Of a stretch of DNA of 64,000 nucleotides, positions 19,662 through 29,333 are shown one piece after another (position 1 is the stretch's first letter; the number at the start of each line of letters is the position of its first letter). The position numbers and the translations under genes were made by a program. This DNA comes from Hyphomicrobiales bacterium (GTDB lineage: Bacteria; Pseudomonadota; Alphaproteobacteria; Rhizobiales; Beijerinckiaceae): contig JAIXUP010000001.1 in the NCBI GenBank assembly GCA_027483505.1, positions 1 through 64,000 on the forward strand, written 5' to 3'. Below the pieces are notes generated by a model. The model searched no databases. It was not told the DNA's origin and was given only the letters and a program-made list of their open reading frames with translations.

Positions 19662-20768
19662 TCAGAGCCCTGCAGCCTGTGTGAGGTTGATCCGGAACCG
19701 GTCACGTCTGCGTTGATACCGGCGGGTCATTTCGGCGGAGGCGTGACCCAGCTGGCGCTGGACGTCCGTTTCATCCACGCCAGCGGACGAGGCTAGGCCG
19801 GCGCGCAGGCTGTGGCCCGCGAAGAGGGCCTTGCGTTGCCGCTCTGGCAGATCAGCGCGCACCGCCGCCTTGAGAGCGGTCGATTGCACCAGGCGGGCAA
19901 CATGCTTGTCGTCGAGCCGGTCCGGCCCGACGCCGGAGTTTTTCCGCAGCACGCGCCGGAACACAGGGCCATGGCTGATCCGGCCAAGTTTGAGCCAGGT
20001 TTCCAGTGCGTGGACCGGGCAAGAGCGCTCCGACGAGCCCCGGCCGATTTCGACCTGCCGCCAGCCGGTCTTGCCGCGGATCGTCAGAAGCGCGCCCTCC
20101 GTCAGGATCTCGATCCAGCCGCCGCTGTCCTGCGTCTGGCCTTCGCTGCAGTCGAGCCCTGTGATCTCGGAACGGCGCAGGCCGCCGGCAAAACCAAGGA
20201 GCAGTATCGCCCGGTCTCGGAAGCCGCGCAGGTCGCTCGGCAAGGTCGCGCACATGGCGAGGATGTCTTCGGCGAACAGAGCTTCCTTCTGACGAGGCGG
20301 GCGGGCATGGGTGCGCCTGATGCCGGCCATCACGTCGAGGATGTGGCGGTCCTGCCGGGAGAGCGGTGAGCCGAGGGAACGGTATGTGGTGGTGATCGCG
20401 GCAAGGCGGCGCTCGAGGGTGGAGACGGCGGCCTTTGCGATGCCGTCGCCCGATGCGGCCGCTGCAAGATAGAGCCCGACCACCTCAGCATTCGGTTCGC
20501 GGACATCGAGGCCCTTGCGGCGGCACCAGCGCGCAAACTGTGCCCAATCGGAAGCATAGGCCTTGCGCGTGTTGGCGCTGGAGCGGGCTTCTGCGTAACC
20601 GCGCGCCGTGTCGGCAAGGCGAGACAACGCGGGCAACGGCTGCGATGGCGATTTGTCAACGAGAGCCGACATCTCTTCGCTCGCCGGCGCCGCTGCGGAA
20701 ACGTCACGGTGGCCCTCCGGTCGATGAGAGCGGACGTTACCGGGCAGTTCGGACAAGGAAATCGGCAT
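19662..20768 (-). CDS. Tyrosine recombinase/integrase
   Basis: The product has 368 residues. A SAM-like core-binding domain covers about residues 45-155 (SSANTRKAYASDWAQFARWC). The catalytic domain shows R198 (or R199) in GGLRRSEI, K233 in RGKTGW, H319-x-x-R322 in GHSLRAGL, H342 in LGHAS and Y351 in TRRYQRR, so all catalytic residues are present. Recombinases of this kind on repABC replicons are candidates for multimer resolution. A dif-like palindrome lies 19 bp upstream of its start. No prophage or integron genes are beside it, which argues against a phage integrase. Confidence 0.92.
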   Translation of the reverse strand: MPISLSELPGNVRSHRPEGHRDVSAAAPASEEMSALVDKSPSQPLPALSRLADTARGYAEARSSANTRKAYASDWAQFARWCRRKGLDVREPNAEVVGLYLAAAASGDGIAKAAVSTLERRLAAITTTYRSLGSPLSRQDRHILDVMAGIRRTHARPPRQKEALFAEDILAMCATLPSDLRGFRDRAILLLGFAGGLRRSEITGLDCSEGQTQDSGGWIEILTEGALLTIRGKTGWRQVEIGRGSSERSCPVHALETWLKLGRISHGPVFRRVLRKNSGVGPDRLDDKHVARLVQSTALKAAVRADLPERQRKALFAGHSLRAGLASSAGVDETDVQRQLGHASAEMTRRYQRRRDRFRINLTQAAGL

Positions 20769-20978: not shown

Positions 20979-21191
20979 TCAGGTCAGGTCACGCGCCCCG
21001 ACCCGATCAGCGAGGCGGACAAGCCAGATCAGCACGTCACGTTCTTCGGGCGTGAGATGGTCGTCTTCAGCCAGGGAGAGGACGACGGGCCTGAACTCCG
21101 TCCAGCGCAGATGGAAGTCGGCTACATCCCGCACTGGTCGTGAGGGTGTGTCCACCATGGTTGTCGGCATGCGTTTCTTGCCCCTTGCCAT
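20979..21191 (-). CDS. Small hypothetical protein (70 aa)
   Basis: The predicted product has 70 residues: a basic N-terminus (MARGKKRMP), then a stretch resembling a folded helical domain with LTPEERDVLIWLVRLADRVG. The amphipathic pattern and the EER/LADRVG wording look like a real conserved small protein rather than a shadow frame. I cannot name its family. The ribosome-binding site is weak. It lies alone between the recombinase and the BTAD regulator, on the opposite strand to the latter. Confidence 0.5.
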   Translation of the reverse strand: MARGKKRMPTTMVDTPSRPVRDVADFHLRWTEFRPVVLSLAEDDHLTPEERDVLIWLVRLADRVGARDLT

Positions 21192-21341
21192 GTTCGCAAG
21201 GATACGCGCTGCGTTGTCTGGGCGCCCGTGAGAAAAGCGTGAAACGCATTGGCGTCATGGCAGGAATGGGACTACCTTACTCTCCGTCAAATCTGGACTG
21301 CTGGCCAAGAGCGCTCCGGGGGTCTGGTGAGGGTCGGCTGG

Positions 21342-22985
21342 ATGGAGACCAAGCTTCTCGACATCAATCTGTTCGGCGCGTGCTCGGTTCGCTCGAGCGC
21401 GGCGGGCGGGTTCGAAATCACCGGCGCGAAGCAGAAGGCGCTGTTCGCCTTGCTGGCGACCGCTCCGTTTGGCCGGCGGACCCGTTCCTTCCTGCAGGAG
21501 ACCCTGTGGGGCGTCGCCTGCTACGACACCGGTCGGCAGAGCCTCAGGCGTGCCCTCGCCGACATCAAGCTCGTGATGGGTGACAGTTTCGCGGAACTGA
21601 TCACGAGCACCAATTCCGAAGTCTCGCTCGATCTGGCGCGGGTCGATTTCGCCGGCCATCCCAAGCTGGGACCGTTTCTCGAAGGGCTCGACATCCGGGA
21701 GACCGGATTTGTCCAGTGGGCGTCGGCCATCCGCCAGAACCCGTCGCAGCTCGATGCCCTCTACAGCCTGTCCTTGCGCGGTGGCCCCGCAATCCTTCCG
21801 CTCGTCGCGGTCCTGCCGTTCAGGGCCGTGAGCAACGATCTGGCGGAGGTGACGTTTGGCGACTGGCTGGCGGAGGAAATGTGCCGATCGCTCAGCCGCT
21901 CACGCCTTCTCGGCGTGATTTCGCATCTGTCCTGCCGGGAGATCGCCCAGCAGGGCGTCATCGACATTCGCCAGGTGCGCGATCGGCTGCAGCCGGATTA
22001 CTGCGTCGTGGGCAGCCTGAGGCGCAGCGGCGCGGACCTGGTGATCGACGCCGACTTTCTTGACGTGCGGACCGGGCGCATCCTGTGGACGCGGCAATTC
22101 TCCGCCTCGGCCGCCACGTTCCTCGAATCAGCGCAGGATGGCATCGCCACGCTGGTCGGCGCTGTCGGCGCCGCCATAGCCGATGAGGCGCTGCAGCATG
22201 TGGCGAGCCGCGCCGTCGGAGAGATCGAGGATCACCGCCTCGTGGTCGCCGGCGTGAAGCTGATGAGCCGGTCGACGCTGCGGGATCTTGCGCGTTCGCG
22301 CGAGCTTCTCGAGGAGGCCGCGCGCCGCGCGCCACACGCGCCGGAGGTCTACGCATGGCTCGCCAAGTGGTATACCTTGAGCGTCTTCAATGGCTGGAGC
22401 ATCGACATCGAGGCTGACACACGCCGCGGCATCGACAACGCCGCGCATGCGCTCGATCTGGCTCCCGACAACACGCTGTGCCTGTCCATTGACGGACTGG
22501 CCCAGAACAATCTGATCAAGGATCTGGAGACGGCGGAACGGCGCTTCAGCGCGGCCCTGCAAATCAATCCGAATGAATCGCTTTCGCTCATTCTGCGCGG
22601 AACGCTGCACGCCTTCCGGGATCAGGGCGCGCTGGCGGTGCAGGATACCGAACGAGCCCGCCGGCTCTCGCCGGTCGATCCCTTCCGGTACTATTATGAG
22701 TCACTCAGCGCGACGGCCTATATCGCCAACGATGATTATGTGAATGCGCTGGCGTTTGCGGAAAGTTCGCTCCATCTGAATGATCGGCATACATCGTCCC
22801 TGCGCAGCAAGATCGTGGCGCTGCATCATCTTGATCGCGGTGACGAGCTTCGCGCCGCCGGAGCCAGGCTCCTCAAAGGCAATCCCGAGTTCACGGTCGA
22901 GCGCTACCTGAGCACCCATCCAGCCGGAAACTACCGGTTTGGCCACAAGGCAGCCGCAGCGTTCCGCGCTGCCGGGATTCCATGA
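21342..22985 (+). CDS. BTAD/SARP-like transcriptional regulator with TolB-like domain and TPR repeats
   Basis: With the ATG at 21342 the product has 547 residues. The N-terminus (about 1-100) is an OmpR/BTAD-type winged helix: AKQKALFALLATAPFGRRTR, then LWGVACYDTGRQSLRRALAD. The middle (about 155-290) resembles the TolB/FlgO-like module of adenylate-cyclase-associated regulators, with VAVLPFRAVSNDL and YCVVGSLRRSG. TPR-like helices follow to the end, for example HAPEVYAWLAKWYT and NPNESLSLILRG. No cyclase catalytic domain is present. It is the first gene of a plus-strand set and ends 15 bases before the PAP2-fold gene, so it probably controls that cluster; the signal is unknown. In-frame starts at 21249 and at a GTG near 21327 are less likely. 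Confidence 0.8.
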   Translation: METKLLDINLFGACSVRSSAAGGFEITGAKQKALFALLATAPFGRRTRSFLQETLWGVACYDTGRQSLRRALADIKLVMGDSFAELITSTNSEVSLDLARVDFAGHPKLGPFLEGLDIRETGFVQWASAIRQNPSQLDALYSLSLRGGPAILPLVAVLPFRAVSNDLAEVTFGDWLAEEMCRSLSRSRLLGVISHLSCREIAQQGVIDIRQVRDRLQPDYCVVGSLRRSGADLVIDADFLDVRTGRILWTRQFSASAATFLESAQDGIATLVGAVGAAIADEALQHVASRAVGEIEDHRLVVAGVKLMSRSTLRDLARSRELLEEAARRAPHAPEVYAWLAKWYTLSVFNGWSIDIEADTRRGIDNAAHALDLAPDNTLCLSIDGLAQNNLIKDLETAERRFSAALQINPNESLSLILRGTLHAFRDQGALAVQDTERARRLSPVDPFRYYYESLSATAYIANDDYVNALAFAESSLHLNDRHTSSLRSKIVALHHLDRGDELRAAGARLLKGNPEFTVERYLSTHPAGNYRFGHKAAAAFRAAGIP

Positions 22986-23000
22986 CGTGACGGAGGACAG

Positions 23001-24137
23001 ATGTCGAGTTTGAGCGGTACAAGCGGAACGTCAGGAACCAGCGGGACATCCGGCACAAGCGGCACCTCGGGCACGAGCGGAACATCCGGCACCGGGGTTG
23101 CGCCGTTCATTCCGGGTGGCGGCGTCAATCCGCTGCTGGCCGGCGGGTTGATCGTTTCCGGTATGTCGATCCGGCACATTGCCGATCCGGACGATGTCCA
23201 GGCCGCCACTGTCTTCCCCTACAATGATATGCCCTTAGGTCCAGCCGCCAATCTGGCGCAATGGGCGCCGTGGGTCAGGGCGTCGCTCTATCTCACAGAC
23301 ACCATCAAGAGCCTCGATTGGCGCGCCAGCCTGCCGTCCGGCGGCACGGGCTTCGCGTTGAGCTATCGCCGGAAGGTCCTTGTCACGCTCAAGAGGCCAA
23401 GCCCGGACCTGTTCCGCCTGCAACTGAAGCATTTGCGCTCCTACAGTGATCAGCGCGCTGATCGTGCGGCCGAGGTCCTGACCCAGGTCGGCTTTCCGAC
23501 GGACTATTTCGCGGGCATCATCGGCCTGAACGGCGATGCCAACCCCCGCACTTTCGAGTTGATCGCCATCACCCAGGTGATCGCCTCGCATGTTGTGCTG
23601 GTGGCCAAGAACCATCTGCCGGCGCTCAGGCCCGACAAGCGCGGCGCCAGCGTGTTGCCGATGATTCCGACGCCGGCGCACAGTTCGTTCCCGAGTGGAC
23701 ACGCGACCGAAGCTTTCGCCGTCGCGACAGTCCTGTCGGGGCTCCTGGAGCACCTTGATGCCTTGCCACCGGCAAGGCGGCGCTTCCCGGTCAAGGACAA
23801 GCTCGTGAAGCTGCTCTACAAGCAGGCAGAGCGCATCGCGGTGAACCGCACCGTCGCAGGCGTGCATTTCCCGATCGACACCTGGGCCGGCGCTGCGCTC
23901 GGCGAGGCGGTCGGCCAACTGGTGCTGGCGCGCTGCCGGGGCGGTCCCGTTGTGCCGCGCGACTACGATCCCAGGGACAGCGATTTCCAGCTGACCCAGT
24001 TCATCCCCTCGGTGACGGGTGGCGCCGGCAATCCGGCCAACCATGGGCTGACCCGCGCCGCGACGGGTGTCGCTGTGCCGTCCGGCCCGCTGTTCGCCTG
24101 GCTCTGGCGCAAGGTCGTCGAAGAGCACGCTTTGTGA
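23001..24137 (+). CDS. PAP2 / vanadium-haloperoxidase-fold protein with N-terminal Ser-Gly-Thr repeat
   Basis: The product has 378 residues, with GGAGGAC upstream as ribosome-binding site. Residues 5-31 are nine Ser-Gly-Thr units. The metal- or phosphate-binding signature of the superfamily is complete: K203-x6-R210-P211 (AKNHLPALRP), S232-G-H234 (FPSGHATEA) and R283-x5-H289-x3-D293 (NRTVAGVHFPID). The family includes vanadium-dependent haloperoxidases and soluble acid phosphatases, and the residues cannot tell these apart. There is no signal peptide and no clear transmembrane pattern, so it looks soluble. It is followed 38 bp later by a subtilisin-like protease. Confidence 0.85.
   Translation: MSSLSGTSGTSGTSGTSGTSGTSGTSGTSGTGVAPFIPGGGVNPLLAGGLIVSGMSIRHIADPDDVQAATVFPYNDMPLGPAANLAQWAPWVRASLYLTDTIKSLDWRASLPSGGTGFALSYRRKVLVTLKRPSPDLFRLQLKHLRSYSDQRADRAAEVLTQVGFPTDYFAGIIGLNGDANPRTFELIAITQVIASHVVLVAKNHLPALRPDKRGASVLPMIPTPAHSSFPSGHATEAFAVATVLSGLLEHLDALPPARRRFPVKDKLVKLLYKQAERIAVNRTVAGVHFPIDTWAGAALGEAVGQLVLARCRGGPVVPRDYDPRDSDFQLTQFIPSVTGGAGNPANHGLTRAATGVAVPSGPLFAWLWRKVVEEHAL
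23013..23093 (+). repeat. Nine tandem 9-bp units encoding Ser-Gly-Thr
   Basis: The units encode SGT nine times in the N-terminus of the PAP2-fold protein. All nine DNA units differ from one another by synonymous changes (for example agcggtaca, tcaggaacc, tcgggcacg), so the repeat is old and kept at the protein level. It is likely a flexible, hydroxyl-rich linker or a target for modification. Confidence 0.9.
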
Positions 24138-24175
24138 CCTGCGGCGCCTGTCACTGACGGAAGGAGCATCCGGCG

Positions 24176-26269
24176 ATGATCACCGATGGAGTCAACGACT
24201 CTGGAGGCGGCAGCGGGGAACCGCGGTTGACCGGAGCCTACGAGACCTGGACCTACGGGCGCGGCAGCGCCTATGCGGCGTTGGCCGTTCCGCTCGCTGA
24301 GGCCCGTTTCGTCCCGGCGGTCATGACATTGCCGCCAGGCGCCGCGCCCGAAGACCTTGCCGATCAGCCAACTGATGGTGAGACGGGCCGCGTCTTGCTG
24401 CCCGTGCTCTGGAAGGGTCTGGCGCGTCGCGCGCAGACCGCTGTCCCCTGGCCGGTGCTGCTTGATTTCGGCGAGCCGCAGAGGCGGGGTCCGCTGGATG
24501 CGGGCATCGTAAACCGTCAGCTTGCCATCCTGACGGGGCCGATCCTTGCCTCGACCAACCGGACGCAGCCGAACTTTGCGTTGAATGCGCCGCTGGTGAC
24601 CGGCACGGTTTCGCCCGCCGTGCGTGGCTCAACCGCGATCGCGCCCGATCCGCGCGTGCTTGCCAAGGTCAACCGGACGGGCGCCCGGCTCACGGTCATG
24701 GCGGTGATCGATGATGGCATTCCCTTTGCCCACCGCAATCTGTTGAACGAGGCAGGCGACAGCACGCGCGTCGAGTTCTGCTGGCTGCAATCCGCGACCA
24801 CGAATGGGAACCTGCTGTTCGGCAAGGAGTTCACGCGGACGGACATCGACGCGCTGCGGACGACGCACGGACCTGACGAGGATGCGATCTACCACCAGGC
24901 CGGCGCGCTCGAAGAGACGGACGGCGCCTCGGCAACGCTCGGCCATTTCGCCTCGCACGGCGCACATGTGCTCGACGCCGCGGCCGGCTGGCGCAATGAT
25001 GGCGCTGATCTCGATCCGCTGCGCGTCATCGCCGTGCAGTTGCCGCCGTCGGTCACAATCGACACCGCCGGCTACCGCAAGGACGGCGCGGTGCTGGCGG
25101 CCCTGCACTACATCTTCGCGCGCGCCGATGAGGTCGCGCTTGCCTATCTTGGCGACGCCGACGCCAACCTTCCGCTGGTGATCAATTTCAGCTACGGCTT
25201 CAGCGGCGGTCCCCATGACGGGTCCGATCCACTGGAAGTCGCGATCGCCCAGATGGTCGCGGCGCGGAAGGCGCAGAACAAGCCGACGACGCTGGTCATG
25301 CCCGCGGGAAACAGTTGGGCCGACGCCATGCTGGGGCAGATCGCGCCGTCGGAGCTGGTGGTCGGGCGGCCGTTCCATGTGCCGTGGCGGCTCCAGCCGA
25401 ACGATGCCACGTCGAGCTATCTCGAGATATGGGCGCCGGCCACCGGCGCCCCAGGCACCTACAGCCTGGCTTTGGCCGATCCGCAGGGCCGTGCGGTCGC
25501 AACGGGCGCGAACCTCGTGTTCACGACAGGTCCGGGCGGCGCACCTGTGAAAGCCGACCTGTCGATGTCCGGCGCGGTGGTCGGGCAGGTCGACATTGCA
25601 CCCTTCAACGCCGCCTGGACGCGTGCGCGCATCGCGCTGGCGGCGACCGAGCCACGCGACCCGACATTGCCGGCTGCGCCTTCCGGCCAGTGGTCAGTGT
25701 CGCTGACGCGGACGGGAGGCGCTGCGCCGACTGGTCCGGTCTCTTGCCGCATCCAGCGTGACAACGACCCGTATGGCTATGTGCGTGGCGGCAAGCAGAG
25801 CTATTTCGACGTCCCGGACGACGAGCGCCATACGCCGGATGGTGCGCCGACGCGCATCGAGAACCCGCCTCGCACATTTGTCCGCCGCTTCGGCAGCGTG
25901 AACGGCCTCGCCACGCACGATCAGGTCACGGTCGTATCGTCACACTATGCCGATACGGGCCGCGCGACGGAGTACGCCTCGGCTGGACCGCTCAGCCCGG
26001 TTCCCGGTGCTCCCGGCGCCGTCAGCGTCTCGATGCCCGCTGATGCCTCCACGGCCTTGCGCGGCTCGCTTGCGGCTGGCACGCGCAGCGGCTCGGCAAT
26101 CCGCCTCTCCGGCACAAGCATGGCTGCGCCGCTTTACGCCAGGCGGGTCGCGCTTGCGCATCTGGACAGCGCGATTCCATTGCCACAGGTTCAGCCGCTC
26201 AAGGCGCCGGTGAGCCAGGCCGAGGATGCCGAGCGCCCCTTGCGCCTGGGACAGGCTCTCGCCGGCTGA
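24176..26269 (+). CDS. S8 family (subtilisin-like) serine protease
   Basis: The product has 697 residues. The triad is visible: Asp in VMAVIDDGIPFAHR (D179), His in ASHGAHVLDAA (H261) and Ser in LSGTSMAAPLYAR near residue 640. The oxyanion-hole Asn is in MPAGNSWAD near 383. Large inserts separate the His and Ser regions, including an apparent beta-rich domain at about 395-500. The N-terminus (MITDGVNDSGGG) is not a signal peptide, which is unusual for a subtilase, so it either works in the cytoplasm or leaves by a non-Sec route. It belongs with the PAP2-fold protein and the peptidoglycan-binding protein. Confidence 0.88.
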   Translation: MITDGVNDSGGGSGEPRLTGAYETWTYGRGSAYAALAVPLAEARFVPAVMTLPPGAAPEDLADQPTDGETGRVLLPVLWKGLARRAQTAVPWPVLLDFGEPQRRGPLDAGIVNRQLAILTGPILASTNRTQPNFALNAPLVTGTVSPAVRGSTAIAPDPRVLAKVNRTGARLTVMAVIDDGIPFAHRNLLNEAGDSTRVEFCWLQSATTNGNLLFGKEFTRTDIDALRTTHGPDEDAIYHQAGALEETDGASATLGHFASHGAHVLDAAAGWRNDGADLDPLRVIAVQLPPSVTIDTAGYRKDGAVLAALHYIFARADEVALAYLGDADANLPLVINFSYGFSGGPHDGSDPLEVAIAQMVAARKAQNKPTTLVMPAGNSWADAMLGQIAPSELVVGRPFHVPWRLQPNDATSSYLEIWAPATGAPGTYSLALADPQGRAVATGANLVFTTGPGGAPVKADLSMSGAVVGQVDIAPFNAAWTRARIALAATEPRDPTLPAAPSGQWSVSLTRTGGAAPTGPVSCRIQRDNDPYGYVRGGKQSYFDVPDDERHTPDGAPTRIENPPRTFVRRFGSVNGLATHDQVTVVSSHYADTGRATEYASAGPLSPVPGAPGAVSVSMPADASTALRGSLAAGTRSGSAIRLSGTSMAAPLYARRVALAHLDSAIPLPQVQPLKAPVSQAEDAERPLRLGQALAG

Positions 26270-26564
26270 TCGCGGCGTCCCGATCCTGACGTAGCGGCAT
26301 TACCACAATTGCCTCACGCGCATCGCGCGGCGGGAGAACCGGCCTGCCGGAGACGCGGGCCCGCCGGTGTTCCCGCCAGCTACGGAGCGCGCGCCATGTG
26401 CGATGCCACGGTCGCTCCCGGCTCTGACGGGCGCTTCACGGTTTCCTCACGCGCATTGGCACGGCGGGCCGGATATTCTGCAAAGGCCATGCAAGAGCGC
26501 AACCTCCGTGGTTGGCGGCCCCATTACGGCTTCATGCGCATGCCCTGGACGAGGAGTTTGACAG
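26270..26564 (+). repeat. 295-bp intergenic region with an imperfect direct repeat
   Basis: CCTCACGCGCAT occurs at 26312-26323 and 26445-26456, each followed after four or five bases by CGGCGGG. Open frames cross the region but start weakly and look non-coding. The repeats may be regulatory or a remnant of duplication. The next gene has a clear ribosome-binding site (GAGGAG) at the end of this region. Confidence 0.4.
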
Positions 26565-27404
26565 ATGTTGACCCCCACCATGTCTGCAATGCCGAGAGTA
26601 CGTGTCGCCGCGTCCGCAATTCTGAAGGCTGGCATGTCGGGCGATGCGGTGCGCAGGCTTGCCCTTGACCTGGCCACGCTCGGCTATCTGCCATCCAATC
26701 CTCCGTACGGAATGTTCGACCGCGAGATGGAAGCGGCCGTGCGCCGTTTCCAGGTCAAGGGGATCGGGGGCGACGGCAGGCCGCTCAAGGTTGATGGCGT
26801 GGTTGGCCCCAAAACCCGATTCGGGCTGGGGCTTGCTCTCGGGGACAAGCTGGAAGCCCCCAACACCTGTCTGCCGCCGCCACCCGCTGCGCTCGGCACG
26901 TTGCCGCCCGGGGTTGGCGCGGCGGGCTGGCGAGCCCTTCAGGCCGCGCTTGCCGAAATCGAGGACGGCGCCCAGGAGATCGGAGCGCCCGGTTGCGGGC
27001 CTTATTGCGCGCGTTATCTGGCCGCGGCAGGACGGTCCCAACCTCAGGACTGGAGCACGGCTTTCGTGGCCTGGTGTCTGGGCGAGTCGGGGATTGCGGA
27101 CGCGTCCACGCTGGTTGAGAAGGCGTGTTGGCTCGGCTGGGAATCGCCGGAGACAACTCCGGTCCCCGGCGACGTGCTGATCTGGACCAGCGAACTCGGT
27201 GACGGCTTTTGCGGCCATGCCGCGATCGTGGCATGGTTCGCGGATGAGCTGGTTCACACCGTGGAGGGTGGCCGCACGCCCTTTGTGGAATTCTTCCACT
27301 ACGACTGGTCCATGCTGTCGCGGATTGTCACGGTGGTGCGGCCGAAGACGCGGAGCGGCGAGGCCTTGGAGCATTTGCGCAGCATGCCTGCCGGCACGCT
27401 CTGA
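26565..27404 (+). CDS. Peptidoglycan-binding domain protein with CHAP-like domain lacking the expected Cys
   Basis: The product has 279 residues; GAGGAG lies eight bases before the ATG. Residues 15-95 form a PG_binding_1 domain (MSGDAVRRLALDLATLGYL, then VDGVVGPKTRFGLG). The C-terminal half resembles CHAP/NlpC-like amidase domains: DWSTAFVAWCLGESGI, VPGDVLIWTS and FCGHAAIVAWF. In this family the residue after Trp is normally the catalytic Cys; here it is Ser164 (codon AGC at 27054-27056), while the probable His218 is kept. It may be an inactive binding protein, may use Ser, or may use another Cys such as C171. No signal peptide is seen. It closes the plus-strand hydrolase cluster. Confidence 0.72.
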   Translation: MLTPTMSAMPRVRVAASAILKAGMSGDAVRRLALDLATLGYLPSNPPYGMFDREMEAAVRRFQVKGIGGDGRPLKVDGVVGPKTRFGLGLALGDKLEAPNTCLPPPPAALGTLPPGVGAAGWRALQAALAEIEDGAQEIGAPGCGPYCARYLAAAGRSQPQDWSTAFVAWCLGESGIADASTLVEKACWLGWESPETTPVPGDVLIWTSELGDGFCGHAAIVAWFADELVHTVEGGRTPFVEFFHYDWSMLSRIVTVVRPKTRSGEALEHLRSMPAGTL

Positions 27405-27559
27405 GGACTGTCGCGGCGAGGGTTGCCTCGCCACCAGCCGCATCATCGGCGCCGTCATTCGTATCGGTTCGCATGGTGGTTCGCCTGTGGCTCCCATCGT
27501 CGGCGCGTCGCTTGATTCTCCGTGACGCCACGTGGATCGGGACGGTTTATGCTTTCGGT

Positions 27560-28582
27560 ATGAGCCGATTCGATCAGCGATCTCCACATCCGCCTGCGCC
27601 GCAACCGGTGAAACGCCGCCGTGCGGCACCCCGGATGCTGGACGCCGACGCCGCGATCGGTCCACTGCCGGGCTGGCTGGTGCCTGCTGGACTGTCAGGG
27701 GCATCGCACCTTTCAGGCGCGCTCAACGCTGGCGGCGCTCTCGCCTTCGTTCATCAGCTTGTCTCGGCGGAACATGCCTGGGCGGGCACCCTGCGCCAGC
27801 GGCAGGCGCTGCGCTGTGCTGCCTGGTGTGCAAAGATCGCGCGCATTCCGGGCGACGAGGCGGCGTTGCGCGACGCCCACCACCTGACACGTCCGGGCGA
27901 TGATCCTGGACCGGCCGGCCGGCTCTATCGGGGCTGGCGCGATCTGGCGGCACGGCCGGCGCGACTCGATGCGCCATCGCTGAAGCGGCTTGCCGGCGGG
28001 TTGGGCCTGATGGTCGACGAAGCCGAGGCCGGGGCGGTGATCGCCGCCATCGGTGGGCCGAGCCCGATCGCCGCGGCGGCCTCCGCTGCCGCTGCCGTCA
28101 CCGCGCTGTGGGATAGCAGACTGACGCCGAAGGAGCCGCTGGCGGAAGTTCTCGCCTGGATGATGGCCGACGCAGCGCTTGCGGCGGCCTGCGGCTGGAG
28201 ACAGGCGACCCCAATGCTGGCCTGCGCCATCGGCCTGCCTGCGTTCCGGCAAGGCCTTGCGGGCCGGCGGCCCTGGCCGGGCGATCCGGACTGGCCGGCC
28301 ATCGCCCATGCCGTCTACGCGGTGACACTTGCCGATGTGTATGCACAGGCGGCCGATCTGGCGCGCCGTCATGAAAGACTGCGTCAGGCATTCGCGCGGG
28401 TGCGCAGCAGGGGCGGGGAGGCGGCGCTGGCGCATGTGCTCGATGATGATGGCGTCATGGCGACCAGCTTGACAGGGCTCGGTTCGGACCGCGCGGCGCG
28501 CCGCTTTCTTGAACGGCTGCATCAGCTTGGCGGGCTGCGCCTGCTGACCGAACGCGCGACCTTCCGGATTTACGGGCTCTGA
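27560..28582 (+). CDS. DUF1403 family protein
   Basis: With the ATG at 27560 the product has 340 residues; a longer frame from 27473 lacks support. The N-terminus is basic and Pro-rich (HPPAPQPVKRRRAAPRM). The rest is Ala-rich and helical, with the phrase GGALAFVHQLVSAEHAWAGT and a C-terminal region GLGSDRAARRFLERLHQLGG. I recognise it as DUF1403, which has no known function and which I recall as occurring on alphaproteobacterial plasmids next to ScpB-like genes. The ScpB-like gene follows 64 bp downstream here, suggesting a shared role in replicon maintenance. Confidence 0.72.
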   Translation: MSRFDQRSPHPPAPQPVKRRRAAPRMLDADAAIGPLPGWLVPAGLSGASHLSGALNAGGALAFVHQLVSAEHAWAGTLRQRQALRCAAWCAKIARIPGDEAALRDAHHLTRPGDDPGPAGRLYRGWRDLAARPARLDAPSLKRLAGGLGLMVDEAEAGAVIAAIGGPSPIAAAASAAAAVTALWDSRLTPKEPLAEVLAWMMADAALAAACGWRQATPMLACAIGLPAFRQGLAGRRPWPGDPDWPAIAHAVYAVTLADVYAQAADLARRHERLRQAFARVRSRGGEAALAHVLDDDGVMATSLTGLGSDRAARRFLERLHQLGGLRLLTERATFRIYGL

Positions 28583-28646: not shown

Positions 28647-29333
28647 ATGAGCCGCCGCGACACCCTGCGCAAACCCGCCCCCGACTTGTTTGATCCGGAG
28701 CTTGCCGATCTGCCGCCGGATGCGCGCTGGCGTGAATGGATGGGCCGTGTCGAGGCGGCGATCTTCGCCAGTCCCGACCCTGTGCCGCGCGCCAGGCTCG
28801 CTGCGCTGGTCGGGACTGCCTGCGTGCTCGACGACCTGATCGCGGACATCAGGGACGAACTGAAGGGCAGGCCCTATGATCTTGTCGCGGTTGAGGGCGG
28901 CTGGCAGCACCGGACCCGCCCCCGCTTCTCCGCCGCTATCCGGCAGGCGCGCGGCGAGGTCCTGAGGCCGCCGGCGCTGAGCCAGACTGAGACCCTTATC
29001 CTGACCGCCATCGCCTACCTCCAGCCTGTCACCCGGGCGCAGCTCTCCGCCAGCCTCGGCCGGGAAATCAGCCGGGACACCATGGCGCTGCTCAAGCGCC
29101 ATGGCCTGATCGCGGCGGGCCCGCGCGTGGCGCAGTTGGGGGCGCCGCTGACCTATGTCACGATGCCGGCCTTTCTCAGCCTGTTCGGGCTCGGGTCGCT
29201 GCGTGATTTGCCGGATATCGAAAATCTTGGCGTGGGCCCCACTCTCGGTAGGGATGGCGACCGCGCCGCTGATGACGGCATTCCGCTGGGCTTGGGCGAA
29301 GGAATGGAAGCGGATGCCGACGACGAGCCTTGA
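28647..29333 (+). CDS. ScpB-like segregation and condensation protein
   Basis: The product has 228 residues. It has the ScpB double winged-helix arrangement: an N-terminal part with RVEAAIFASPDPVPRARLAA and a second part with ILTAIAYLQPVTRAQLSASLG, LLKRHGLIAAGPR, and the ending FLSLFGLGSLRDLPD typical of ScpB. Chromosomal ScpB works with ScpA and SMC in chromosome condensation. No scpA or smc gene is present here, so this copy may be recruited to the host complex or may have its own plasmid function with DUF1403. The C-terminal tail is acidic. Confidence 0.82.
   Translation: MSRRDTLRKPAPDLFDPELADLPPDARWREWMGRVEAAIFASPDPVPRARLAALVGTACVLDDLIADIRDELKGRPYDLVAVEGGWQHRTRPRFSAAIRQARGEVLRPPALSQTETLILTAIAYLQPVTRAQLSASLGREISRDTMALLKRHGLIAAGPRVAQLGAPLTYVTMPAFLSLFGLGSLRDLPDIENLGVGPTLGRDGDRAADDGIPLGLGEGMEADADDEP

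Follow-up and report, generated by a model that had tools for sequence, protein, structure and literature searches.

Csp germination proteases, which are subtilases, mature a peptidoglycan-lytic zymogen. Operators of the SARP regulator family consist of direct repeats: In the accessible parts of two studies, these repeats lie 11 bp apart, and those of PimR are located in the intergenic region of the regulator (PMC3367932, PMC4393881). The rule given in the accessible part of the second is that the 5′ repeat overlaps the −35 element and the 3′ repeat lies 8 bp before the −10 element (PMC4393881). A locus with apparent counterparts of both, together with a PAP2-fold enzyme, is found in a 64-kb stretch (hereafter the window) of a Hyphomicrobiales bacterium, one stretch (contig JAIXUP010000001.1, positions 1 to 64,000) of a 3.9-Mb genome in 87 contigs. 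The original prediction, made from the letters of this stretch, described four plus-strand genes, for a BTAD/TPR regulator (REG), a PAP2-fold protein (PAP2), a subtilase (S8) and a CHAP-like protein (CHAP), and all four open reading frames (ORFs) exist at the place and on the strand given. It also knew of no named system with such a composition. None turned up in open-licence literature searched by titles and the starts of abstracts, nor did any paper describing the module that we delineate here, a widespread set of apparently dedicated parts for which we found neither name nor function in that literature.

REG, PAP2 and S8 form a conserved module

The locus sample has 101 members picked by PAP2 or S8 similarity: the window, 20 other loci and 80 PAP2 relatives, the best of at least 498 confirmed by a PAP2-alignment scan of genome contigs. 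Genes were recognized with hidden Markov models (HMMs) built from earlier loci (21 sequences each for S8 and PAP2, fewer for REG), for which the 20 other loci and the window partly served as building material. REG, PAP2 and S8 are adjacent in 101/101 loci, all 80 kept PAP2 relatives included, and in 97/101 they stand in the order REG>PAP2>S8 on a single strand, with no gap larger than 600 bp. Since the 80 are the closest relatives and two genomes are counted twice (L024/L062 and L025/L063), the figure of 101/101 is not valid for all PAP2 relatives. In the window, 15 bp separate REG from PAP2, 38 bp PAP2 from S8 and 295 bp S8 from CHAP; the one ORF tested in the last gap gave no Pfam match. The synteny rules out coincidental neighbours for REG-PAP2-S8. 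We conclude from gene order that these three form one module, and consider the module and the operator described below nearly certain to be real features.

Searches with S8 were made in two further sets. Among the 101 genomes of the relatives' sample, the window genome included, S8 matches occur in 12, its own among them, and a PAP2 match adjoins S8 in 12/12. Among 385 genomes of the class, where only the top few candidates per genome were scored, PAP2 lies beside 8/10 strong S8 places (E<1e-40), in nine genomes; the two places without a PAP2 neighbour are in G195 and G284. The trio is present in 7/385 of these genomes, a patchy spread. Overall the module is found in many alphaproteobacteria and some other bacteria, and the PAP2-S8 pair is carried on plasmids of Bosea, Terrarubrum, Microvirga, Phaeobacter, Paracoccus and Roseibium. 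In a record named Oceanobacillus sp. HTM 045 (L132) the trio is alphaproteobacteria-like, possibly through contamination or mislabelling.

CHAP is near the trio in only 2/101 loci, the window and L061, and is thus ruled out as a universal fourth member. The claim that the four genes belong together is supported, with the correction that CHAP lies outside the conserved module, and the neighbourhood comparison suggested along with it, once run, found co-occurrence for three of the four. The PAP2 of L061 is 97% identical to that of the window and its CHAP, at the equivalent place, 88% identical; nucleotide homology covers 20983-26335 and 26320-27404, from the end of a small gene to the CHAP stop.

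This small divergent gene was missing from the four-gene list. First seen by clustering neighbours, then searched for with an HMM built from 19 of the loci scored, it lies upstream of REG and divergent from it in 72/82 loci whose REG has a BTAD-like N-terminus, and in 0/19 others. Its product has a motif resembling DLxDFYxRWPELR...LxWMIxxxDRVGPxDL, and the copy in the window has no Pfam or PHROG match. The conserved set is hence REG-PAP2-S8 with the small gene added in most BTAD-type copies. A partial second REG/small-gene copy with its own operator lies near the full module at L025 5367-6051 and L063 9388-10072 (one Bosea-group genome, sampled twice).

The original prediction designated REG a BTAD/TPR regulator. 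BTAD had no Pfam match in the window REG at E 1 nor in 27 REG proteins at E 0.001, and the TPR matches of the window REG are below the Pfam cut-off. Its N-terminus does have a winged-helix profile match: Against PDB winged helices the profile (A7) matches ToxR at 4.6e-4, and AfsR (0.089) and EmbR (0.14) at values which are not significant alone. The only NCBIfam match is of HilA/EilA type (6.6e-10; it scores 38 bits where the cut-off is 589). A fair reading of these similarities is that REG is a DNA-binding regulator of OmpR/SARP type. The Pfam scan of the 27 REG proteins returned Guanylate_cyc in 8, Trans_reg_C in 1, TPR_2 in 20 and FlgO in 4. The BTAD-like N-terminus is detected by HMM in 82/101 loci; ten of the 19 REG proteins without it are within the scan of 27 and nine outside.

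The original account also lacked an operator. Two GTGA repeats 11 bp apart stand upstream of REG in 69/82 BTAD-type loci and in 0/19 others: From block-shuffled sequence 0.48 would be expected, and no other spacing is found in more than 5 loci. Among the 69, the sites in L067, L087 and L099 may be off target; the count leaves out L103, L105, L108, L111 and L132, which have near variants or sites placed elsewhere. A candidate REG promoter follows just downstream, with three of six consensus positions in its −10 element, and a TTG −35-like triplet lies within 3 bp of the equivalent place in 53/69 operator loci. Of the 80 sites that a weight matrix of 68 sites found in 1.75 Mb of loci, 65 were training sites; about 8 further ones lay at REG, 2 belonged to a partial second copy of REG, and 5 were in other places. 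A pattern fitted to the two sites of the window (Table 1) and allowed up to two mismatches finds only these two in the window genome. Among seven Bosea genomes, six have a single site and the seventh has two, the second at a partial REG/small-gene copy; in two other trio-bearing genomes the same window-fitted pattern finds no site. The predicted operator thus occurs in step with the DNA-binding REG N-terminus, and most BTAD-type copies carry both the small gene and a dedicated operator-like site.

Table 1 Features of the locus in window coordinates.
Feature	Position	Strand	Description
Small divergent gene	20979..21191	-	About 70 aa; start codon chosen by us; found by HMM
SARP-like operator (predicted), CGTGAGAAAAGCGTGAAACGC	21227..21247	+	Two GTGA repeats whose starts are 11 bp apart, before REG
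Candidate promoter	21249..21278	+	TTGGCG 21249-21254, TACCTT 21273-21278, 18 bp apart; consensus match only
REG	21342..22985	+	Winged-helix (BTAD/SARP-like) N-terminus, then a region we take to be TolB-like, and TPR
PAP2-fold enzyme	23001..24137	+	Pfam PAP2 2e-11; K203/R210/S232/H234/R283/H289
(Ser-Gly-Thr)9 tail of PAP2	23013..23093	+	9 units, 9 DNA versions, one peptide
S8 Csp-like subtilase	24176..26269	+	Pfam Peptidase_S8 2.1e-6; D179, H261, N379, S648
Second operator-like site, CGTGAGGAAACCGTGAAGCGC	26431..26451	-	113 bp before CHAP start, pointing away from CHAP
PG_binding_1 + CHAP protein	26565..27404	+	Pfam PG_binding_1 3.7e-9, CHAP 7.6e-7

The PAP2 tail and the two enzymes

The most unusual feature of the module, overlooked in the original prediction, is a tandem-repeat tail on PAP2. 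A script found, a few residues behind the start Met, a perfect tandem peptide of at least 12 residues in 98/101 PAP2 ORFs, with period 3 in 90 and period 4 in 8; as for exceptions, inspection by eye adds SGGV in L119, while L066 is imperfect and L103 has none in frame. As a background, 4/6098 stop-to-stop ORFs in these loci (minimum length 100 aa, spurious ORFs included) have a perfect run this long or longer. The units include GTS, GGI, GGF, GGL, GGV, GGT, NSF, TAM, HAS, NGA, QGL and SGGY, with NAE and NAD in further genomes of the class, and DAR and TAQ also occur. As they range from GGF to GTS, NAE and DAR, the chemistry of the tail is not conserved. To our knowledge, there is no other case of an enzyme with an exact three- or four-residue repeat whose letters vary between species.

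Adjacent units differ at 73% of third codon positions, and 0/98 arrays are identical throughout in DNA. Between adjacent units the proportion of synonymous differences (pS) is 0.829 and of nonsynonymous differences (pN) 0.044, giving a pN/pS of 0.053 (99 arrays with 931 units, 55 of them imperfect, extended through near-matching units). Slippage as the sole cause of the tail is rejected on these grounds. Some arrays (L107, L136, L030 and L124) look recently expanded, and such expansion may explain unit turnover. The unit is identical in 11/11 pairs of loci with more than 95% core identity, in 27/58 at 85-95%, 11/31 at 75-85%, 46/72 at 65-75% and 72/425 at 55-65% (L103 excluded; L066, with its imperfect GGVGPM, and L119, with SGGV, set by hand). 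L115 and L124 differ by 0.10 at fourfold sites of the core, yet have SGGL and SGGI, respectively, in every copy. Unit swaps between close relatives, together with the low pN/pS, suggest that arrays are replaced and then kept homogeneous by selection on the peptide.

Recognition of the tail unit by S8 or REG found no support: The residual differences were −0.0031 (shuffle standard deviation 0.0026) and −0.0034 (0.0063), respectively. That unit identity is unlinked to S8 or REG divergence is as expected if the tail binds itself. Within the window genome (SGT)3 occurs only in PAP2 and no second protein with that unit was found, a search which diverged copies could escape. We infer that the tail acts through its regular repetition and not its chemistry, and the most likely means is self-association which concentrates or tethers the enzyme, although self-association as such is put forward tentatively and with some doubt. 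It is unlikely, but worth stating, that the tail is a self-recognition tag in which any unit works provided that it is exactly repeated, in effect a lineage-specific homotypic ‘barcode’. In this reading such a barcode would assemble the enzyme into an active or stored form without mixing with foreign barcodes, and would be joined to a dedicated SARP-type autoregulatory circuit and a matched intracellular protease.

In a distant PAP2 subfamily the tails are mostly of GNT and a REG homologue lies directly upstream. Among its REG-PAP2 pairs (L149-L163 and L172-L177) 18/21 have a repeat, that of L154 being short and imperfect. L164 was left out (4050-aa ORF), and L165-L169, tail-only matches in other proteins that resemble ordinary low-complexity sequence, were dropped. 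REG with a tailed PAP2 may be the older core, and S8, the small gene and the operator may belong to one branch.

In PAP2, residues K203, R210, S232, H234, R283 and H289 are invariant in 80/80 aligned sequences, in agreement with the KX6RP, PSGH and RX5HX3D motifs. The AlphaFold model (predicted local distance difference test, pLDDT, 87) is confident except mainly at residues 1-34 (<50). By profile, acid phosphatase (2.9e-13) precedes bromoperoxidase (2.5e-8), and Foldseek places class A acid phosphatases at the top, with a haloperoxidase appearing first at rank 25. H227, seven residues before the active-site H234, is also invariant in 80/80. Its counterpart in the alignment is a His in vanadium bromoperoxidase 1qi9 (SPTHPSYPSGH), whereas acid phosphatase 7f17 has no such match. 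A His in this position is a characteristic of bromoperoxidases. With an acid-phosphatase-like fold and profile but a bromoperoxidase-like His, phosphatase and peroxidase chemistry are both possible.

S8 passes the Pfam cut-off for its family, and its triad and oxyanion Asn are invariant in 59/59 aligned sequences; from conservation, the active-site residues of both enzymes are thus kept. The S8 model has a pLDDT of 90.8, and its 11 best Foldseek matches in the PDB are CspA, CspB and CspC (E 5e-22 to 1e-19). By profile, the nearest subtilases are 9sj6 (4.2e-24) and CspB (4i0w, 1.8e-16). Against curated Csp models S8 scores 22.3 for a cut-off of 1250 and 21.5 for one of 675, and is on these comparisons Csp-like, not a Csp.

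Proposed working and alternatives

We propose, at slightly less than even confidence, that the module is a mobile effector cassette which regulates itself and works inside the cell, and that the tail of PAP2 serves to assemble or tether this enzyme. REG would bind the putative GTGA-N7-GTGA site between the small gene and its own gene and, once its TolB-like/TPR part receives a signal, would drive REG-PAP2-S8 in a feedback loop; CHAP may be a further target of REG in this genome. PAP2 and S8 would work in the cytosol, with self-association of the tail concentrating or tethering PAP2. S8 would trim or activate a partner, as Csp does, either PAP2 or an accessory hydrolase: CHAP here, and elsewhere a haem peroxidase or an LCAT-trypsin protein, which accompanies some loci. 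In L079 (11097-15594, an alphaproteobacterial metagenome-assembled genome) an animal haem peroxidase and an LCAT+Trypsin_2 protein come after S8 on the same strand, and ORFs related to this pair follow in several Marivita loci. The likeliest outcome, and the weakest step, would be that stress or an invader triggers damage to phosphorylated envelope or lipid substrates of the cell itself; on the whole, we think it unlikely that the outcome is self-damaging or defensive.

The defence or programmed lysis envisaged in the original prediction found no clear support, but defence is possible: The best PADLOC matches of the genes were at E 0.033 (REG), 0.053 (S8) and 0.02 (CHAP), with none for PAP2, so that no known anti-phage system in PADLOC matches them. 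Among 112 neighbouring ORFs (111 from 44 loci and one from the window, no control set) PADLOC matches are scattered, with mad3 3, PycC 2, PycTIR 2 and others 1 each. A Qat defence gene (L018 20501-21542, Roseibium plasmid) lies about 9 kb from the trio.

Several observations weigh against the proposed cassette. The neighbours are mostly of unrelated families with no clear enrichment for defence. S8 was not detected beside the distant PAP2 subfamily in the stretches available, and since the REG-PAP2 pairs L161-L163 have no tail, the pair can do without one. Where REG does not have the BTAD-like N-terminus, the operator is absent as well, and control there must differ. In one S8 relative (L015) Glu replaces the catalytic Asp. 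Sharing of tail units declines unsteadily with distance (note the 65-75% class), which arises because related loci make up many of the pairs. The tail is disordered in the AlphaFold monomer, a model that neither supports nor excludes assembly, and to argue for self-association from having seen no coevolving partner is weak evidence. The operator-like site on the CHAP side has a matrix score of 19.5, under the cut of 23.8 and under 65/68 REG sites; it faces away from CHAP and is followed by no TTG.

This last point bears on CHAP, whose protein has an endolysin-like PHROG match (5.8e-10) over its peptidoglycan-binding part. The site has the second-best repeat-part score in the 64-kb window after the REG site, and is retained upstream of CHAP in L061; its weak matrix score lowers our estimate, and we judge from these data that CHAP is somewhat more likely than not to be a member of the regulon in this genome, possibly a lineage-specific one. 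A somewhat less probable, still serious alternative makes CHAP a passenger and the system REG-PAP2-S8 and the small gene only. Its rarity near the trio and the poor score and orientation of the site speak for this, as does a plasmid search which gave just two distant CHAP relatives, one beside repABC; the rank of the site and its conservation in L061 speak against it. The relative beside repABC is L034 10007-10795, on an Ochrobactrum plasmid which carries a BREX system a few kb further along. Part of the operator region is duplicated imperfectly between S8 and CHAP, at 26309-26470. In L061 this interval is longer by about 740 bp; the additional sequence is flanked by two sites, with a third operator-like site in all, and apparently contains two small ORFs, and the window may have lost ORFs of this kind by recombination between operator copies.

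Three other explanations concern what the enzymes do and where. PAP2 could be vanadium haloperoxidase-like instead of a phosphatase and the module oxidative, with intracellular chemistry of reactive halogens or peroxide, a reading of the alignments that we rate as rather improbable. The invariant H227 fits it, as does an ORF cluster of animal haem peroxidases within 8 kb in 13/101 loci (the two double-counted genomes included; Pfam confirmed 5/5 ORFs tested), but profile and Foldseek favour acid phosphatase, and the cluster has no member in the other 88 loci. A little less probable than this is envelope or lipid housekeeping under stress, in which soluble PAP2 phosphatase, induced by REG, recycles a phosphorylated precursor and S8 serves quality control without any attack. 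Here 49/80 PAP2 proteins match the undecaprenyl-diphosphatase SepP model at E<=0.001 (best 2.4e-8; the window PAP2 scores 18.5 bits against a cut-off of 250), and groups of loci share flanking gene clusters, as long-kept chromosomal copies would; the patchy spread, the plasmid copies in several genera and the hypervariable tail argue otherwise.

The last explanation, that the proteins leave by a non-classical route and act outside, with the tail as export or anchoring signal, we consider very unlikely. The original prediction saw no Sec or Tat signal in the three hydrolases, and none is obvious by Kyte-Doolittle hydropathy, which was used here instead of a signal-peptide predictor: The best 15-residue means in the first 60 residues are 1.37 (PAP2), 1.39 (S8) and 1.03 (CHAP), and no relative reaches 2.0 in its first 70 residues (0/80 PAP2, 0/59 S8). 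A 19-residue stretch of at least 1.6 anywhere occurs in 8/80 PAP2 (in that of the window at residue 184) and in 3/59 S8, which speaks the other way. Peptidoglycan-binding and CHAP domains are usually extracytoplasmic, and one copy, that of P. zhejiangensis, has a TssH gene nearby. Against export, no secretion family is prominent among the recurrent neighbours inspected or the 25 commonest Pfam families of the 112 neighbours, and the tail units have no common chemistry.

On the far side of the small gene lies a tyrosine recombinase gene (19662-20768, minus strand), which may be connected with the arrival of the cassette, and beyond it a gene for an FNR/FixK-like regulator. DUF1403 (27473-28582) and ScpB (28647-29333) genes come after the cassette; plasmid pPZ01 of Paracoccus zhejiangensis (L020) likewise has genes annotated ScpB and DUF1403 in the vicinity of its trio, and L061 has neither in the stretch available.

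Comparison with known systems

The tail appears to be an extreme case of selection for repetition itself, in which the unit is swapped wholesale between close relatives, nearly all copies of an array stay identical and the codons drift. If this is confirmed, the action of exact short peptide repeats would become testable in small bacterial enzymes with natural variants.

PAP2 has active-site motifs and a core fold in common with class A acid phosphatases and vanadium bromoperoxidases; unlike these, it has no export signal by hydropathy and has an extra N-terminal region and the tandem-repeat tail. The Csp germination proteases are nearest to S8 by profile and fold, including a strand-rich stretch before the catalytic Ser, but S8 is far below Csp model scores, is not found in spore formers and is partnered with a PAP2 enzyme. 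Collagen-like repeats, with weak model matches, share period 3 and are often Gly-rich, as are the period-3 repeats of PGRS; in contrast, the PAP2 tails are short, sit on an enzyme and can be free of Gly (NSF, TAM, HAS, TAQ, NAE, NAD and DAR). Homotypic amyloid signalling motifs of NLR/effector pairs, as presented in the accessible parts of two papers (PMC8086366, PMC9815663), have in common with the tail a short variable segment on the effector and the idea that like binds like. The PAP2 tail differs from these pairs, as there described, in being an exact three- or four-residue repeat and in having no partner with its unit in the genome.

The SARP regulators AfsR, PimR and OtcR, so far as the sources consulted in part describe them, have an N-terminal winged helix and, in large members, TPRs, as does REG, and the predicted operator has the 11-bp direct repeat spacing of SARP sites in 69/82 loci. 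Unlike in the SARP rule as given there, both GTGA-centred repeats precede the TTG −35 (53/69) rather than overlapping it. REG further differs in having no BTAD model match, in an N-terminus that can be a cyclase and in its target, an enzyme and protease operon rather than antibiotic biosynthesis. If confirmed, the operator would also bring a proteobacterial circuit with an intracellular protease under SARP-style control.

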